A stretch of 64,000 nucleotides of DNA, from assembly GCA_029243025.1 (NCBI GenBank), contig JAQWSU010000050.1, forward strand, positions 1 to 64,000. The letters are read 5' to 3'. The notes beneath the pieces were generated by a model. That model was not told the origin of the DNA and made no database searches. It was given only the letters and a program-made list of their open reading frames with translations. The translations under genes and the position numbers were made by a program. Source of the stretch: Pirellulaceae bacterium (lineage in GTDB: Bacteria > Planctomycetota > Planctomycetia > Pirellulales > Pirellulaceae). The stretch's first letter is position 1. Each line of letters begins with the position of its first letter. Positions 40,517 to 64,000 of the stretch are shown here, in pieces.

Positions 40517-41380
40517 ATGAAAACAACCTTGAAGATGTTATTTGCTTTAGGGCTCATGTGTGCGATTTCCAGCCAAGCGTTGGCAGGTGTGCATGATGGC
40601 CTGATTAACTATTGGAACTTTGACGGCAATTTCGACGACACCGCTGGCTCGATCGCCGGCAACAACAGTACGAAGGCGGACAATGGCAGTCAACCAGCCG
40701 CAGCCGTCTCGTTAGCAAACTGGACTGATATTAACCCCGATGCAGCCGCACTGGGTCAGTACGGCGTGTTCGATGGAACTGCCGAAGGATACATCGAAGT
40801 TCCTGACAGCGCGGACATTGTCCGTGCCGGTGGGGGCGTCTCGATTTCAGCTTGGTTACAAGTCAACAATTTCGATCAAGGTTGGCAAGCATTGCTCGCC
40901 CATGGTGAAGGTTCGGATTACCGAATTGCTCGCCGTGGTGGTGGATCGAACATCATTTCCTACGCCGGTGGAACGGGTGACATTCCCACGAACGATTCGA
41001 CCGGACCTGATATCAACGACGGAAACTGGCATCATGTGGTCGCTATCAGTCCGATCTTCATGGATCAAGCTGCCTCGCAGTTATGGGTTGATGGTGTTCA
41101 AGTCGCAACCGGTGGCAACGCAGTGTTGGGGGACAACGGTTCTGGTCGCCTGATGATCGGTGGTAACCCGGACACATCGGGTGACGGATACCGAACTTGG
41201 GATGGTGCCATTGAAGATGTTGGAATGTGGGATCGCCCACTGACGGGTTCTGAGATCGAATCGATCTTCACTTCGGGTCAGAATGGCATTCCGCTGGCGG
41301 CAATTCCAGAACCGAGTGCCGGTCTGTTGGTCATGTTGGCCGCGGGTGCACTTCCTTTCTTCCGTCGACGCCGTCGTTAA
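40517..41380 (+). CDS. LamG-domain PEP-CTERM surface protein
   Basis: A 287-aa protein. The signal peptide (MLFALGLMCAISSQALA) is followed by a concanavalin/LamG-type jelly roll: LINYWNFDGNFDD, AEGYIEVPDSADI, SISAWLQVNN, NWHHVVAI and LWVDGVQVATGG, ending IEDVGMWDRPLTGSEIESI. The last 26 residues are a textbook PEP-CTERM sorting tail: IPEPS, a hydrophobic span (AGLLVMLAAGALPFF), then RRRRR. Exosortase presumably removes the tail and links the protein to extracellular polysaccharide. Codons are biased to C-ending AAC, GAC, TTC and ATC more than in neighbours, suggesting high expression. It is preceded by a structured leader with its own promoter and followed by a perfect terminator, so it is a single-gene unit. 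Confidence 0.9.
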   Translation: MKTTLKMLFALGLMCAISSQALAGVHDGLINYWNFDGNFDDTAGSIAGNNSTKADNGSQPAAAVSLANWTDINPDAAALGQYGVFDGTAEGYIEVPDSADIVRAGGGVSISAWLQVNNFDQGWQALLAHGEGSDYRIARRGGGSNIISYAGGTGDIPTNDSTGPDINDGNWHHVVAISPIFMDQAASQLWVDGVQVATGGNAVLGDNGSGRLMIGGNPDTSGDGYRTWDGAIEDVGMWDRPLTGSEIESIFTSGQNGIPLAAIPEPSAGLLVMLAAGALPFFRRRRR

Positions 41381-41620: not shown

Positions 41621-43573
41621 ATGGCCATTACCAGGTATTCCATCGATCGTCGATCTTTGCTACCGACACGAGGTTCGCTGACCTTTTGGATCGGTTTGCA
41701 ATTCTTGGGGTTTGCCATTCTGGGCTGTAGTAACTCAGAACCCCGGCAATCTTCTCAACCGCCCACGGGGTTAGGATCGGTATCGGAGCAGCGCACGGAT
41801 AAAGCTTTGAGTCCGGATGAAGAGCTGGGCCATCCAAGCTCCCAACTGGTGACGGCACCTGGCATGGAGCAACACAAATTCATAGCTCCCTTGGCCGACG
41901 CCTACTCTCGTATCGATCCGATACGAGACGGTTGGGATAGCGAAGCCTTGGGAGCGAAAGCCGGGCAGCAACTCGTACGTTTCGGCCGGATGCTGCAAGC
42001 TGAAACGGCACCAGCTGAGCCCGAGCTCGAACGAATCATTTCTTCAACCTTTTCAGCGCAGAACTTGTTTCAGTCTCAGGGGATCGCTGTGTATGGCGAC
42101 GAAACGTTGCGGATCAATCGAGTTGACGTGGGTCCACAGCCTTCTTCGTCAGCAGTAGGCGTTCGCCGATTCCAGGAATTGCGTGACTCTTTCCGTACTC
42201 GATTTAATCCTGTAGCAGCCAGCGAACTCAAATTCAAAGTGGTCCGTGTCAATCTTTCCGATGAAACGGCAAATACTGAGGTTTATTTCCATGCAGACGG
42301 AAACTCCGGAGAGGGTCTCACTGAGCTTTCAGCCGTCTGGACCGTCAGTTGGCAATCGATCCAGAACGAACTGAAAATCAATTCAGTCACCGTGGATCAA
42401 CAAGAGAACGTGACTCATCCAAACAGCCAGCAAACGCGTTTCGCGGATTGCACAGCTTCGGTTTTAGGGGAGAATGCTTCCTACCAGGAGCAGCTCTTGT
42501 ACGGCACGGATCATTGGCGTAGTCGTTTCTCAAGGAGTCTAGGGCTTGATGTCGTTGCAAACCATGGACTTGCCATCGGCGATGTCAACGGCGACGGGTT
42601 GGACGATCTCTATTTATGCCAACAGGGAGGGTTACCTAATCGGCTGTACATTCAACAGGCTGACGGGCGATTGATCGATCGTTCGCTGAAGAGCGGGACC
42701 GACTGGTTGGATTTTTGTGCCAGCGCATTGTTGATTGATTTAGATAATGATGGCGACCGAGACCTGGTCGTCGGTGGAGAGTCTCGAATTATGCTGATGG
42801 AAAATGACGGTCGCGGTCATTTTTCGTTGCGCAAGGCGGTGCAAACACTCGCACAGACCTTCTCTTTAACCGCCGCTGACTTCGATCTGGACGGCGATCT
42901 TGATCTTTTTTGTTGTGGCTACAATCCGCTGGGTGATCGAGCACAACGGGGTGCGATGGGGGAACCCGTCCCGTACCATGACGCTCAAAATGGCGGCAGG
43001 AACATGCTGCTGAAAAACAACTCGAACTGGGAATTCGCCAACGTCACAACCGAGGTCGGGCTGGATCAAAACAACAATCGATTTAGCTTCGCAGCCTCCT
43101 GGGAAGACTATGACAACGACGGCGATAGCGATCTTTACGTTGCCAATGACTATGGTCGAAACAATCTCTATCAAAACAACCAGGGCACATTCCGAGATGT
43201 CGCTGGCGAACTGGGCGTCGAGGACATGTCGGCAGGCATGTCCGTTAGCTGGGCAGATTTCAATCGTGACGGCTGGATGGATTTCTATGTGAGCAACATG
43301 TTTTCTGCTGCCGGCAATCGCATCACTTTTCAACGTCAGTTCCGTTCAGCCGAAGCCAGCCACCTCAAGGAGCAGTATCAACGACACGCCCGAGGCAACT
43401 CACTCTTCCAAGCCGATGGCAAGGGTGGGTTTGCCGATGTAAGTGTCCCGGCCGGAGTTACCATGGGACGTTGGGCATGGGGAAGTCGTTTTATCGATTT
43501 CAATAATGATGGATGGCAGGATATTCTGATTGCCAACGGTTTTATTACCACGGCCGACACCGGAGACTTGTGA
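41621..43573 (+). CDS. FG-GAP/UnbV-thioredoxin lipoprotein, N-terminal part up to in-frame UGA (candidate selenoprotein)
   Basis: 650 codons from ATG 41621 to TGA 43571-43573. I read this and 43574-45646 as one 1341-residue protein, because the frame is unchanged and homology to the paralogue at the window end runs straight through the TGA. It begins with a lipoprotein signal (GLQFLGFAILGC, Cys 36). A poorly recognised region (about 60-290) precedes FG-GAP/VCBS propeller repeats with Ca-binding loops: GDVNGDGLDDLYLC, DLDNDGDRDLVVGG, DFDLDGDLDLFCCG, DYDNDGDSDLYVAND, DFNRDGWMDFYVSN and DFNNDGWQDILIANG. These calcium-loop propellers are found in the CRTAC1-like family. The TGA follows GDL, where an uninterrupted family member would have an amino acid, plausibly cysteine. 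Confidence 0.8.
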   Translation: MAITRYSIDRRSLLPTRGSLTFWIGLQFLGFAILGCSNSEPRQSSQPPTGLGSVSEQRTDKALSPDEELGHPSSQLVTAPGMEQHKFIAPLADAYSRIDPIRDGWDSEALGAKAGQQLVRFGRMLQAETAPAEPELERIISSTFSAQNLFQSQGIAVYGDETLRINRVDVGPQPSSSAVGVRRFQELRDSFRTRFNPVAASELKFKVVRVNLSDETANTEVYFHADGNSGEGLTELSAVWTVSWQSIQNELKINSVTVDQQENVTHPNSQQTRFADCTASVLGENASYQEQLLYGTDHWRSRFSRSLGLDVVANHGLAIGDVNGDGLDDLYLCQQGGLPNRLYIQQADGRLIDRSLKSGTDWLDFCASALLIDLDNDGDRDLVVGGESRIMLMENDGRGHFSLRKAVQTLAQTFSLTAADFDLDGDLDLFCCGYNPLGDRAQRGAMGEPVPYHDAQNGGRNMLLKNNSNWEFANVTTEVGLDQNNNRFSFAASWEDYDNDGDSDLYVANDYGRNNLYQNNQGTFRDVAGELGVEDMSAGMSVSWADFNRDGWMDFYVSNMFSAAGNRITFQRQFRSAEASHLKEQYQRHARGNSLFQADGKGGFADVSVPAGVTMGRWAWGSRFIDFNNDGWQDILIANGFITTADTGDL

Positions 43574-43601
43574 AGCGTTTACTGGCGACAAGTTGTGTCG
43601 C
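43571..43601 (+). promoter_or_regulatory. In-frame UGA with SECIS-like hairpin
   Basis: After TGA 43571-43573 there are 11 nt, then GCGACA (43585-43590) pairs perfectly with TGTCGC (43596-43601) around loop AGTTG (43591-43595). The apical loop therefore starts 17 nt after the TGA and has G as its second base. This meets the bacterial SECIS consensus (loop 16-37 nt downstream, a G in its first two bases) and equals the spacing I recall for E. coli fdhF. The E. coli bulged U is not evident. Confidence 0.6.
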
Positions 43602-45646
43602 AATCGCCTGCTGAATTGAGCCCCGCTTCGTCCTTCGTTCGTTATAAGCAGGGTTGGAGGGCATTGAACCGTCTCTTGCATGAGGACAAATCGTTTAGTG
43701 GGCATGAGAAGAATTGTGGCTTCCTGAATCTTGGAAACGGTCAGTTTGCTTCGGTCAGCTCGGTGAGTGGGCTGGACCTTGACGATGATAGCCGCGCGAT
43801 TGCAATTTGTGATTGGGATTTTGACGGTCGGTTAGATTTCTGGATGACAGCGCGGACAGCTCCTCGCTTGCGATTGATGCGCAATCGTGAGAAGCGATCG
43901 GGTGGTTTTGTCTCACTGAAACTGGAAGGGAATGGTAAAGATTCTAATCGAGATGCAGTTGGGGCTCGTGTCGAAGTCATCCTGCGAAACCATGAGCAGG
44001 ATAAACGTTTGATTCGGACCGTCCACGCGGGTGACGCCTTCTTGTCGCAATCGAGCCCTTGGCTTCATTTTGGCTTGGGAGCGGAGACCGAAATTGAGAA
44101 GGTCATCGTGCAATGGCCAACCCGATCGGAAGCGAGTCGTGCGCAAACGGTTAGCGGTGTGCAATCCAACGGATTCTATTTGGTGCGGCAAGGTGAGCAG
44201 GTGGCAATTCCGTGGCAGCCACCTGCCTCCCGAATTCAGCTTGAGCCGAGTGCTCCGGTTTTCCCTGAACCGGAAAATTCGAAGCGAATTGTCTTGCCGG
44301 CCCGGTTGCCGTTGCCAGCCATCAAAACGTTATCGGGTTCAACGGAGCCGGTTTCTTGGAAGCAGCCTTTGTTGATTAATGTTTGGTCCGCTACTTGTCC
44401 TGTTTGTGTTGCGGAGCTGGAGGAATGGTCCGGAAAAGCAAAGGAATTTCAAAATCACGGTTTGGAAGTTCTACTGCTTAATGCCGACGCTCACGACCAA
44501 CAGGCAAAGGTTCAGCTCCTTATCGATCAGCTTGGGACAGCGTTTTCGTCGGCGACTGCCACCGCTGAAACCGTCCAAGCACTCGATTTTTTTCAACGTG
44601 CGATGTTGGATCGCTGGCAGCCTTTGCCTGTGCCGTGCAGCTTCTTACTAGATCGTTCCGGCCAGGTTGTGGTGATTTACAAAGGTGCGGTGCCAACCGA
44701 GCAATTGTGGGATGACCTGGCGTTGCTGGAGGCTAGTCCTGAGCAACTCCGCACGGCTGCTGTGCCATTCACGGGGCAGTGGTTGCGGTCTGTCCCTGCC
44801 GCGCAGCCGACTCTGGTCTCGACACAAATGGTGGATCATGGAGCCGTGACGGATGCGATCGCTTATCTAGAGAAATTTTTAGAGGCAAATCCAGAAAGTG
44901 GACAGCTTGCACAGCTCCATTTTATTCGTGGCATCCTACTGAAGTCACAACGGCGTTTTCCTGAGGCGTTGGAATCACTTCGATTAGCCGTTGAGGAAAA
45001 CCCCGCTGATTTGCCGGCGCACATTGAGTTGGCAACGATGTTTGAGCAAGCTCGTCGCCCCTCAGAGGCCCAAAAGGAATGGGTTGCTGCCTACAAAATC
45101 GATTCGGCGAATCGACAAGCCCAGCTTGGTTTGATCACCAACCTGCTGCTGCAAAAAAGGTTTCAGCCGGCTGCCGAGTTAGCGAAACGCGTGTTGTCAA
45201 AGCAACCCAGCGATGTCATGGTGCAATTTCGTTTGGCAACCGCTTATCGCAATCTGCGAAAATGGCCTGAGGCGATCGCAGCTTATCGTCGTACGATCGA
45301 ACTTGAGCCAAACATGTTGCTGGCCGCCAATAATCTTGCCTGGATTCTCGCAACTCATCCAGACGATTCGCTTCGCGAAGGAGCCGAATCTCGCCGATTG
45401 GCAGAGCGAATTTGCCAACTGACTGAGTTTGAGGAGCCGGAGTTTTTGGATACGCTGTCCGTCGCTTATGCCGAAAACGGCGACTTTCAGCAAGCAGCTC
45501 GAATCGCTCGTAAGGCTGCTGCCATCTTGGACCGACGCGGTGTTGCTTCGCCCGAACGGTTGCAGCCGTTGTTGGATCGCATCAACGGCTTTGATGACCA
45601 GAAACCGTATCGAGAGACTTCTGACAGGTCCCCGCCAAATCCCTAA
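43574..45646 (+). CDS. FG-GAP/UnbV-thioredoxin lipoprotein, C-terminal part after UGA
   Basis: This continues the frame of 41621-43573. A pipeline would start it at GTG 43595, but it has no ribosome binding site or signal peptide there, and the residues before that GTG (S-V-Y-W-R-Q-V) are conserved in the paralogue. Counting from ATG 41621, residues about 700-840 finish the FG-GAP region and carry an ASPIC/UnbV domain (RDAVGARVEVILRN, HAGDAFLSQSSPWLHFGLG, VQWP). A thioredoxin-like domain follows near 900-1020 with NVWSATCPVCVAELEEW; its CPVC is a redox-type CxxC. TPR repeats fill about 1080-1320 (for example FPEALESLRLAVEENPADLPAHIELA and WPEAIAAYRRTIELEPN). An extracytoplasmic redox role is inferred from the CxxC and the possible Sec. 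Confidence 0.75.
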   Translation, partial: SVYWRQVVSQSPAELSPASSFVRYKQGWRALNRLLHEDKSFSGHEKNCGFLNLGNGQFASVSSVSGLDLDDDSRAIAICDWDFDGRLDFWMTARTAPRLRLMRNREKRSGGFVSLKLEGNGKDSNRDAVGARVEVILRNHEQDKRLIRTVHAGDAFLSQSSPWLHFGLGAETEIEKVIVQWPTRSEASRAQTVSGVQSNGFYLVRQGEQVAIPWQPPASRIQLEPSAPVFPEPENSKRIVLPARLPLPAIKTLSGSTEPVSWKQPLLINVWSATCPVCVAELEEWSGKAKEFQNHGLEVLLLNADAHDQQAKVQLLIDQLGTAFSSATATAETVQALDFFQRAMLDRWQPLPVPCSFLLDRSGQVVVIYKGAVPTEQLWDDLALLEASPEQLRTAAVPFTGQWLRSVPAAQPTLVSTQMVDHGAVTDAIAYLEKFLEANPESGQLAQLHFIRGILLKSQRRFPEALESLRLAVEENPADLPAHIELATMFEQARRPSEAQKEWVAAYKIDSANRQAQLGLITNLLLQKRFQPAAELAKRVLSKQPSDVMVQFRLATAYRNLRKWPEAIAAYRRTIELEPNMLLAANNLAWILATHPDDSLREGAESRRLAERICQLTEFEEPEFLDTLSVAYAENGDFQQAARIARKAAAILDRRGVASPERLQPLLDRINGFDDQKPYRETSDRSPPNP

Positions 45647-61265: not shown

Positions 61266-61898
61266 TTATCGCTTCATCCGTCGTCGTAACATTGCGATCA
61301 TGGGAAGGATTGCCAGGCCGATGAGACCGAGCGAGGTCGGTTCGGGAACGGACAAAAAGTTGATCTGATAGTTGCGGCCGCCCGCACCGGAAGCGTGTCC
61401 GGACTCGATGACTTCACCAACCGCCGGCGTGTAATCCGTGCCAACTCGGTTAGCCTGGAACATTCCTGAGCCTCCGTCACCACCGAAAGTGACGGTTCCG
61501 CCTGCGTCGTCATCGAAACCATCTCGGTACTGCCAGAAACCTGCAAAGTAATCGTTGCCGTCGTCCGGAATCGCGTCACTCCCCCAGGAGACGGAGTTTT
61601 CGCCAGCATCGGTTGCATTCGAGACGGGACCAATGCCCCAGATCTCGGCGACGCCATCAACGTTCTTGAGAATCAGAGGTTGGACATGGTGTTCACCGCT
61701 AGCGCGGCTCGCTTCTGCATAGTAGGTAACCGTCGAAACACTTTCACCGGCAGGAATGCTGCCAGCGCCGTTTAAAACGGTAACGCCACTCCATCCATCG
61801 ACCGAACCGTTCGTCAAGGGTAACGGGGCTCCCGTTTCGCCTGCTTGGAGCAAACTCACACCGATCAACAAAATTGGTAAGCAAAGTAATTTTTTCAT
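61266..61898 (-). CDS. Small PEP-CTERM protein
   Basis: A 210-aa protein with a signal peptide (LLCLPILLIGVSLLQAG) and a beta-rich body without a domain I recognise. It is acidic and glycine-rich (DAGGTVTFGGDGGSGMF). Strands such as VSTVTYYAEAS and FAGFWQYRDGFDD suggest a jelly-roll or carbohydrate-binding fold. The C-terminus VPEPTSLGLIGLAILPMIAML then RRRMKR is a clear PEP-CTERM sorting tail. It is a single-gene unit with its own perfect terminator, and a structured inverted repeat sits 45 nt upstream of the start. It lies just downstream of the second candidate selenoprotein gene on the same strand. Confidence 0.85.
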   Translation of the reverse strand: MKKLLCLPILLIGVSLLQAGETGAPLPLTNGSVDGWSGVTVLNGAGSIPAGESVSTVTYYAEASRASGEHHVQPLILKNVDGVAEIWGIGPVSNATDAGENSVSWGSDAIPDDGNDYFAGFWQYRDGFDDDAGGTVTFGGDGGSGMFQANRVGTDYTPAVGEVIESGHASGAGGRNYQINFLSVPEPTSLGLIGLAILPMIAMLRRRMKR

Positions 61899-62268: not shown

Positions 62269-63654
62269 TCAAGGACTCGAAATGGAAAGAATTCTTGACA
62301 ATTGTTGCCAGCGTGGATGAGTCAGAAACATTTTGGGGGTCGCTTCGACGTAGCTGCGGCCTTGCTCAAGATGGCCGTGTTTTGCGAGTTCTTCCACGAA
62401 TTCAAAGAGATTTCGTCGGCGAGGAGGCATGATCCAATGTCCGGGGAATGGCAGGCTGGCGGCCCGCCAAGCAGCCGTCGTCTTGGCTGCCGACAGCTTG
62501 CCCACATCTTGGACGAGTTGCTCGACGGAAACCGGGCCTCGATAAATAGCGATCACTCGTCCCTGTCGATCGAGCAAAAAGCTCGAGGGAACGGGCAGCG
62601 GGGCGTGGGATTCAAAAATAGTGTCATTTAGCAGTTGAAGTTTAAAAAGCAGCTCGGCATCGGCTTGGCCGGCTCTGAATGGGAAGTTCATCTTTTTGAG
62701 CAATTGTTGACTCTGGTGAGACTGACCATCCTGCTGCGCACCTGAGGAGAGAAGATCGTCGACATTCAACGCGACGATGTCGATCCGTAAGGCGCGTAAT
62801 GCTTGGCTCTGCTGACTGAATTCCTCGAGTTCTCGAATGCAAGGTTGGCACCAAGCGGCCCAAAGATTCAGCAAAGTTAAGCGGTCTTGCGGTTCCACCA
62901 GGTCGGCAAGTTTTCCCGAGGACGATTGGTAATGATTGGCGGGTAAGCGAATCATTGAGAAGCTCATCGCTTCTGAATCACCCTGATTGGCGATTGGCTT
63001 CACGGGGTCGGAGTCGAGCAGTTTGCGCGCAGAGGTCGCAATCGGATGGGGGGCAGGGTCTCCTTCGATGAACAGCAGCGTCCGATCCACTTCGGTGACT
63101 TGGAACGTTTGCTGTTTTCCTAATGGCCAGGTGACTTCGACTCGATCGATGGATGTTGCGTCACCGAGACCGATGTGCAGCCGTTTGCTTGATTGAGCGA
63201 GAAAACCGTCGCCGGCCCGTAGGGTTCGCGAAATGGGAGTGGCCGTTTGATCGGTGAAGACTCGAACACGGGCTCCGATTCCATCTCGATTTGATTGGAC
63301 CCCTTGCAGGCAGATGGTTAAGAAATGATTCGTGGTCTGCATTTGATTCAGCAAGAATCTTAGTTGCGGACTGTTGCGGTTGGAAATCCAGACATCCAAG
63401 TCGCCGTCTGAGTCCCAATCGACTAAAGCGGCGGCGCGACCATCATCTGCCCAATCAAAACCACTGATCGATGAGACGTTGGCAAAGCCTTGGGTTCCCG
63501 TGTTTAAGAAGGCACAATGTGGCTCATTCCCACTAAAAGAGCGGCCCTCTCGTACAATCGAGAGAAATTGTGCGGCGGCGGTTCCTTCCGGATTGCTATT
63601 GCTAGTGCCCACCGATAAATTGCCGCGCGACCCGACCTGTCGCCAAAAGAAACT
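62269..63654 (-). CDS. FG-GAP/UnbV-thioredoxin protein, C-terminal part after in-frame UGA (second candidate selenoprotein)
   Basis: This frame directly continues the frame ending at TGA 63657-63655. A pipeline would start it at GTG 63612, but the codons from 63654 onward (S-F-F-W-R-Q-V) align with the paralogue at 43574. It contains the end of the FG-GAP region (CAFLNTG, SGFDWADDGRAAALVDWDSD, GDLDVWISN), an ASPIC/UnbV domain (RDGIGARVRVF, AGDGFLAQSSKRLHIGLG) and a thioredoxin-like domain with NLWAAWCQPCIRELEEF, a TlpA/ResA-type CxxC. Unlike its paralogue it lacks the C-terminal TPR repeats and ends soon after the thioredoxin fold. The CQPC site suggests an extracytoplasmic thiol-redox role. 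Confidence 0.75.
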   Translation of the reverse strand, partial: SFFWRQVGSRGNLSVGTSNSNPEGTAAAQFLSIVREGRSFSGNEPHCAFLNTGTQGFANVSSISGFDWADDGRAAALVDWDSDGDLDVWISNRNSPQLRFLLNQMQTTNHFLTICLQGVQSNRDGIGARVRVFTDQTATPISRTLRAGDGFLAQSSKRLHIGLGDATSIDRVEVTWPLGKQQTFQVTEVDRTLLFIEGDPAPHPIATSARKLLDSDPVKPIANQGDSEAMSFSMIRLPANHYQSSSGKLADLVEPQDRLTLLNLWAAWCQPCIRELEEFSQQSQALRALRIDIVALNVDDLLSSGAQQDGQSHQSQQLLKKMNFPFRAGQADAELLFKLQLLNDTIFESHAPLPVPSSFLLDRQGRVIAIYRGPVSVEQLVQDVGKLSAAKTTAAWRAASLPFPGHWIMPPRRRNLFEFVEELAKHGHLEQGRSYVEATPKMFLTHPRWQQLSRILSISSP

Positions 63655-63657
63655 TCA
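63627..63657 (-). promoter_or_regulatory. In-frame UGA with SECIS-like hairpin (second copy)
   Basis: On the minus strand TGA (63657-63655) is followed by 11 nt, then GCGAC (63643-63639) pairs with GTCGC (63631-63627) around loop AGGTCGG. The loop starts 16 nt after the TGA, with G as its second and third bases, and opens AGGTC like the loop I recall for E. coli fdhF. Stem position and sequence equal those in the first copy (43571-43601). Confidence 0.6.
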
Positions 63658-64000
63658 CAAGTCACCCGGGTCATGAGTCGTGATATAACCATTCGCGACG
63701 AGCAGGTCTTCCCAGCCGTCATTGTTAATGTCGCAGAACAATGATGACCAGGCCCATCGTCCCATTTCTACGCCAGCCAATGATCCTGTTTCCTCAAAGG
63801 AAGTACCGATATTTTGAAACAGTGAGTTTCCCTTGGCGAACCGTCGATAAAGTTGTTTGCGTTGCGGGCTGGCGTTGGGCAGAAAGCCGCTTTGAGGTGT
63901 GATGCGATTGCCCGCCGACGAAAACATGTTGCCGACATAGAGATCCATCTGGCCGTCTCGATTGTAGTCCCCCCAAGAAACGGACATGCCTGAGCCAAAG
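63655..64000 (-). CDS. FG-GAP/UnbV-thioredoxin protein, N-terminal part up to UGA (5' end outside window)
   Basis: The frame enters from beyond the window and reads GMSVSWGDYNRDGQMDLY, VGNMFSSAGNRITPQ, LFQNIGTSFEETGSL and GRWAWSSLFCDINNDGWED, then LLVANGYITTHDPGDL before the TGA. It aligns residue for residue with the end of 41621-43573 (GMSVSWADFNRDGWMDFY, GRWAWGSRFIDFNNDGWQD and IANGFITTADTGDL). The FG-GAP calcium loops DYNRDGQMD and DINNDGWED are intact. The gene presumably starts with a secretion signal outside the window. Confidence 0.8.
   Translation of the reverse strand, partial: FGSGMSVSWGDYNRDGQMDLYVGNMFSSAGNRITPQSGFLPNASPQRKQLYRRFAKGNSLFQNIGTSFEETGSLAGVEMGRWAWSSLFCDINNDGWEDLLVANGYITTHDPGDL

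Follow-up and report, generated by a model that had tools for sequence, protein, structure and literature searches.

The window analysed here, a stretch of 64,000 nucleotides from a Pirellulaceae bacterium (assembly GCA_029243025.1, contig JAQWSU010000050.1, positions 1 to 64,000), contains two paralogous genes, each with an in-frame TGA followed by a hairpin (Table 1). Copy A has a single in-frame TGA, in the context GDL-UGA-SVYWRQV. Copy B is read on the minus strand from 63999 to 62269 as ...NGYITTHDPGDL-UGA-SFFWRQVGSRG..., the frame continuing through a UnbV_ASPIC domain and a thioredoxin-like domain to a true TGA stop. The sequence-only reading had described copy B as a paralogue lying on the other strand, with TGA in the motif GDL-U-SFFWRQV, homology extending past it and a GCGAC/GTCGC hairpin downstream. 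All of this was recovered, the first base of the hairpin being the 12th after the TGA. The 5′ end, to be sought beyond the window, was located on the same contig, giving a total length of 1076 aa. That reading was also right in assigning a common hairpin to both copies, but an AGG-type loop start does not hold for copy A, where the loop is AAGTTGT. At the right edge of the window, three adjoining copies of alternating orientation occupy 62269-73122 of the contig (C50, locus L037) and a fourth lies 17 kb off, pointing to local expansion.

Table 1. Features of the two selenoprotein gene copies and their neighbours (positions in the window)
Feature	Position	Strand	Remark
PEP-CTERM surface protein with LamG domain adjoining copy A, putative partner	40517..41380	+	
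Copy A, complete paralogue, 1341 aa	41621..45646	+	lipoprotein-type N-terminus (FAILGC)
FG-GAP β-propeller of copy A	42488..43900	+	contains Sec helix
In-frame TGA of copy A (predicted Sec651)	43571..43573	+	
SECIS-like hairpin of copy A	43585..43601	+	GCGACA-AGTTG-TGTCGC
UnbV_ASPIC domain of copy A	43955..44170	+	
Thioredoxin-like domain of copy A	44363..44671	+	
CxxC active site of copy A thioredoxin domain	44396..44407	+	CPVC
TPR repeats of copy A	45107..45526	+	
PEP-CTERM protein adjoining copy B, putative partner	61266..61898	-	
Copy B selenoprotein gene, 3′ 577 codons in the window	62269..64000	-	gene start at contig position 65499
TlpA/ResA-like thioredoxin domain of copy B	62548..62916	-	active site AAWCQPC
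UnbV_ASPIC domain of copy B	63076..63282	-	PF07593, 1.6e-20
SECIS-like hairpin of copy B, inside coding sequence	63627..63643	-	GCGAC-AGGTCGG-GTCGC
In-frame TGA of copy B, probably read as selenocysteine	63655..63657	-	

The two copies are real, but they are not a pair: the genome encodes 24. When the assembly that contains the window was searched with stops tolerated, 23 close paralogues came up (identity to copy B 46-56%), all with exactly one in-frame TGA and all sharing the motif [DS]-[LM]-U-S-x-x-W-R-[QR]-V, as well as a divergent 24th paralogue at C45:532090 (motif DL-U-SNFWRTV). In every one of them the TGA lies within one long conserved frame; most are full length (1076-1572 aa) and one, L039, is truncated. 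In L039 (5189-7339, minus strand) 188 aa follow the Sec position before a TGA is reached and the thioredoxin domain is missing; this copy is possibly decaying. The same genome has the complete machinery for selenocysteine: selA (570 bits) adjoining selB (365 bits), selD, and a tRNA-Sec whose anticodon is TCA. The selD gene itself contains a UGA, at the position of the known catalytic Sec (SCAG-U-AGK), and the hairpin after it (TTGCACA-GGT-TGTGCAA) has a GGU loop that resembles the loop of the family. Genome-wide reassignment of UGA was considered and rejected: several paralogues, including copy B, terminate with TGA, so that UGA serves as a stop in the very same genes and its recoding must be local.

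To follow the family beyond this genome, planctomycete genomes were searched for the motif with stops tolerated, as the sequence-only reading had advised. A DNA pattern admitting TGA, TGC or TGT at the column matched in 24 of the 294 genomes of the phylum, the matches listed all having TGA, while the reversed pattern gave 2 matches in all over the same 294 genomes. A profile search detected the family in at least 64 of the 294 genomes, about nine in ten of the matches listed having one TGA. About 58 of the 64 carriers have a SelB that scores over its cut-off, versus about 132 of the 230 non-carriers (p ~1e-7, counts tallied by hand from tables). Among the genomes sampled from the family, order and class to which the window belongs, most contain neither the selenoprotein family nor SelB. 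A scan of named genomes gave at least 546 relatives, distributed among Planctomycetota, Verrucomicrobiota and Acidobacteriota, with UGA conserved among homologues and the frame intact on either side; all 14 named carriers tested, from the three phyla, had a SelB match, 13 of them over the cut-off.

Alignment of these genes indicates that the hairpin is constrained beyond the needs of the protein and that its stem covaries. At least five of the six pairs of GCGRCA-GGUCG-UGUCGC form at fixed positions in 107 of 128 non-redundant TGA members, compared with 23.1 of 128 (maximum 36) in 300 synonymous shuffles that preserve the protein. Under the stem, Ser is encoded by TCG in 87 of 90 cases, as against 26% elsewhere. 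Over the alignment 88.7% of pairs are formed and there are 33 double-change cells, whereas slid controls reach at most 65.6% and 18. Compensated stems include GCGCC/GGCGC in L006 and L010, where the Ser has changed to Ala, and GCGTC/GACGC; diverged subfamilies have very different stems round GGUC, for example CAGTTTC-GGTC-GAAACTG in L134. Both synonymous constraint and compensatory change, proposed earlier as the comparison to make under the hairpin, are thus present. Where the TGA is replaced by a codon for Q, N, H, R, E or A, the hairpin is generally lost. In addition, the Ser following Sec is encoded by AGY in 111 of 115 members, which creates a UGA-A context that may weaken termination or belong to the SECIS.

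According to the published rules, a bacterial SECIS has a stem of 4-16 bp and a loop of 3-9 nt located 16-37 nt from the UGA, with G in loop position 1 or 2 and MFE <= -7.5 (PMC13188914 Fig. 2). The family hairpin conforms to them: upon automatic folding, both shape and MFE are found in 152 of 167 members and in only 9-26 of 167 control windows from the same genes. The loose shape test is also passed by 7 of 21 non-TGA homologues. Compared with synonymous shuffles, folding energy is mildly low in members (mean z -0.71) as well as in non-TGA homologues (-0.81), and the hairpin of copy B taken alone (-7.4 kcal/mol, z +0.61), which just misses the energy rule, is not stabler than shuffled sequence. 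Single-sequence folding energy was therefore rejected as proof of the hairpin, and we relied on its conservation, measured as fixed-position pairing, and on covariation instead. No SECIS family of Rfam matches the hairpin.

The column itself is occupied by U in 167 of 188 homologues, by C in 4 and by R, Q, E, N, A or H in the rest; for the tree, L102 and L193, which belong to the 21 non-U rows, were left out as spurious segments. Cys homologues, though rare, do exist. The close one (L210), known from one assembly, a Phycisphaerales MAG, differs in the motif only by its TGC and retains both hairpin and CxxC; a hairpin still present next to TGC is what would be expected after a change from Sec to Cys. 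The genome of L210 has SelB. L145 and L159 represent a distant Cys subfamily. The median dN/dS is 0.117 upstream of the TGA and 0.137 downstream, indicating about equal purifying selection on both sides.

These observations bear on two alternatives to selenocysteine. That the TGAs are real nonsense mutations, leaving pseudogenes or two-piece genes descended by duplication from one broken copy, might be suggested by standard ORF calling, which cuts each gene into two at the TGA, but it is virtually refuted by a downstream frame conserved across phyla, with TGA at one column and both frames intact in 24 copies of this genome and hundreds in three phyla, by dN/dS equally low after the TGA, by 46-56% identity indicative of old divergence and by a hairpin under synonymous constraint. 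The recent duplication with downstream decay that the sequence-only reading had named as fatal to its own proposal is excluded on the same grounds. The second alternative, in which a near-cognate tRNA for Trp, Arg or Cys reads through the UGA under stimulation by the hairpin, yielding a short and a long form, gains some credit from the several paralogue groups with Q, R, H, N, E or A at the column, since the residue is evidently replaceable there. We nevertheless consider it very improbable: the hairpin fits the bacterial SECIS rules (PMC13188914) and has a GGU loop like the one after the Sec-UGA of selD, SelB is commoner in carriers than in non-carriers, and Cys is the residue in L210, the sole close homologue that has a sense codon in an intact motif. 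Moreover, the thioredoxin Cys pair is lost in homologues with neither Sec nor Cys, and the short form would be cut off within the last part of the propeller.

Taken together, the Sec machinery with its tRNA-Sec, a TGA column shared by hundreds of genes from three phyla, the synonymously constrained, covarying hairpin with a SelB-type GGU loop, dN/dS that is about equal across the TGA and the Cys homologue make it nearly certain that the in-frame UGA is read as selenocysteine; a recoded UGA, which had seemed the simplest explanation from the outset, is supported by all these lines of evidence. Decoding is attributable to the known bacterial mechanism: from the comparative data, SelB with Sec-tRNA(UCA) would recognise the hairpin 11 nt past the UGA (apical GGU) and insert Sec. 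The gene product would be an exported, membrane-anchored selenoprotein.

The domain order in the family is a membrane or lipoprotein anchor, a CRTAC1-like FG-GAP propeller with the Sec, a UnbV/ASPIC domain, a TlpA/ResA-like thioredoxin with CxxC, and TPRs. To place the Sec in a structural context, we modelled residues 270-1050 of copy A with AlphaFold, using a 59-row alignment (pLDDT 91.9, pTM 0.93). In the model a helix (382-392) that begins with Sec is inserted in the propeller, and the selenocysteine of the family would accordingly sit at the N-terminus of such an inserted helix. The propeller followed by UnbV_ASPIC matches mouse CRTAC1 (PDB 9ETN; Z 42.5, 454 residues, 22% identity). The domain after UnbV matches ResA/TlpA, being a thioredoxin fold with CxxC in which both Cys are invariant in the alignment.

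CxxC is present in 146 of the 159 Sec members with a known 3′ end and in 0 of the 16 homologues with Q, N, H, R, E or A at the column. That Sec and CxxC travel together suggests an electron exchange between Sec and the fused thioredoxin, the two working together. Given this co-occurrence, we slightly favour a scheme in which Sec is a redox centre reduced or resolved by the in-chain TlpA/ResA-like CxxC. FG-GAP propellers bind metal ions, and Sec might instead work alone, for example as a metal ligand or as a peroxidatic centre recycled by another protein. Such independence, which we regard as a serious though less probable alternative, agrees with the roughly 13 Sec members of known 3′ end that have no CxxC in cis, and once kinship is taken into account the coupling has little support: only three independent contrasts could be made, all in the same direction (p = 0.25), with 3-4 independent losses in all. 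Against it stand the CxxC counts and the fact that thioredoxin folds without both Cys are found exactly in paralogues without Sec. Thus, in L105-L111, with E, A or Q at the column, the thioredoxin-like domain is recognisable by eye but both active-site Cys are gone, an apparent coupled decay of two redox centres. Some short diverged Sec members (L119, L121, L133-L136) have no thioredoxin in cis and may use a partner in trans. A Cys about 48 residues after Sec, considered as a resolving partner, was not supported, H, R, V, F or N being found there in many Sec members.

Judged by sequence comparison, these proteins form a selenoprotein family that is real, new, very large and unusual in its architecture. 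The family is apparently previously undescribed, as the sequence-only reading had supposed: Table 1 of the May 2026 catalogue of 119 prokaryotic selenoprotein families (PMC13188914) includes no such family, and neither NCBIfam nor Pfam gives it a selenoprotein name; this comparison is bounded by the catalogue table and NCBIfam, the planctomycete candidates in supplementary table S9 of a 2016 study reporting selenoproteins from two planctomycetes (PMC4807772) standing outside it. The NCBIfam TsoB model matches through the thioredoxin only (15 bits against a cut-off of 805). A literature search yielded nothing joining selenoproteins with UnbV, and the papers joining selenoproteins with FG-GAP were unrelated.

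The family resembles the bacterial SECIS-dependent selenoproteins, such as E. coli FdhF, FdnG and FdoG and Sec-SelD (PMC13188914), in its in-frame UGA, its hairpin inside the coding sequence, whose loop lies 16 nt past the UGA and has an apical GGU, the selABCD genes of the genome and the Cys homologue. None of the families catalogued there has an FG-GAP/UnbV architecture. Sec lies here in a β-propeller insertion (U-S-x-x-W-R), neither UxxC nor CxxU being adjacent, and one genome has 24 copies. It shares with CRTAC1 the propeller and UnbV fold, but adds the Sec helix, C-terminal thioredoxin, TPRs and membrane or lipoprotein N-terminus. The C-terminal domain has a WCxPC-type active site as in TlpA, ResA and StoA (1JFU, 1ST9, 3ERW); however, those are free or membrane-tethered enzymes, whereas here the Cys-Cys domain is in cis to the Sec centre of another domain. 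UGC-containing TlpA and other Sec-thioredoxins (PMC13188914 Table 1) are likewise selenoproteins with a TlpA-type domain, but in them Sec occupies the thioredoxin motif, whereas the family keeps the thioredoxin CxxC and has Sec about 275 residues upstream, in the propeller. Selenocysteine would thereby be placed in a β-propeller rather than in a thioredoxin-type fold, and the natural series of Sec, Cys and Sec lost together with CxxC is an unusual one for asking what selenium does. Because gene callers cut the family at the UGA, annotated genomes of Planctomycetota, Verrucomicrobiota and Acidobacteriota may miss hundreds of long exported proteins. The family also suggests a large extracytoplasmic demand for selenium in carrier bacteria.

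A possible role at the cell surface is hinted at by the neighbours. In this genome, to which the linkage test was confined, a PEP-CTERM gene lies no more than 2.5 kb from 17 of 23 copies, with 3.2 expected by chance; a crude check of other genomes gave a PEP-CTERM motif at 17 of 77 loci, and at two of the 17 it was plainly spurious. To judge from the TPR tail and the linkage to a PEP-CTERM gene, each paralogue might have one given secreted surface protein as its target or companion, which is our guess and the weakest step of the proposal. Tentatively, one could picture a cell-surface selenium redox system in which a genome encodes dozens of anchored Sec-propeller/thioredoxin/TPR proteins and each of these has an exosortase-sorted PEP-CTERM partner to itself, on which an intramolecular Sec-thioredoxin relay would act or which it would maintain; we think this rather unlikely as a whole. 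The neighbouring PEP-CTERM proteins often have LamG, dockerin or CBM9 domains, and some have no known domain.
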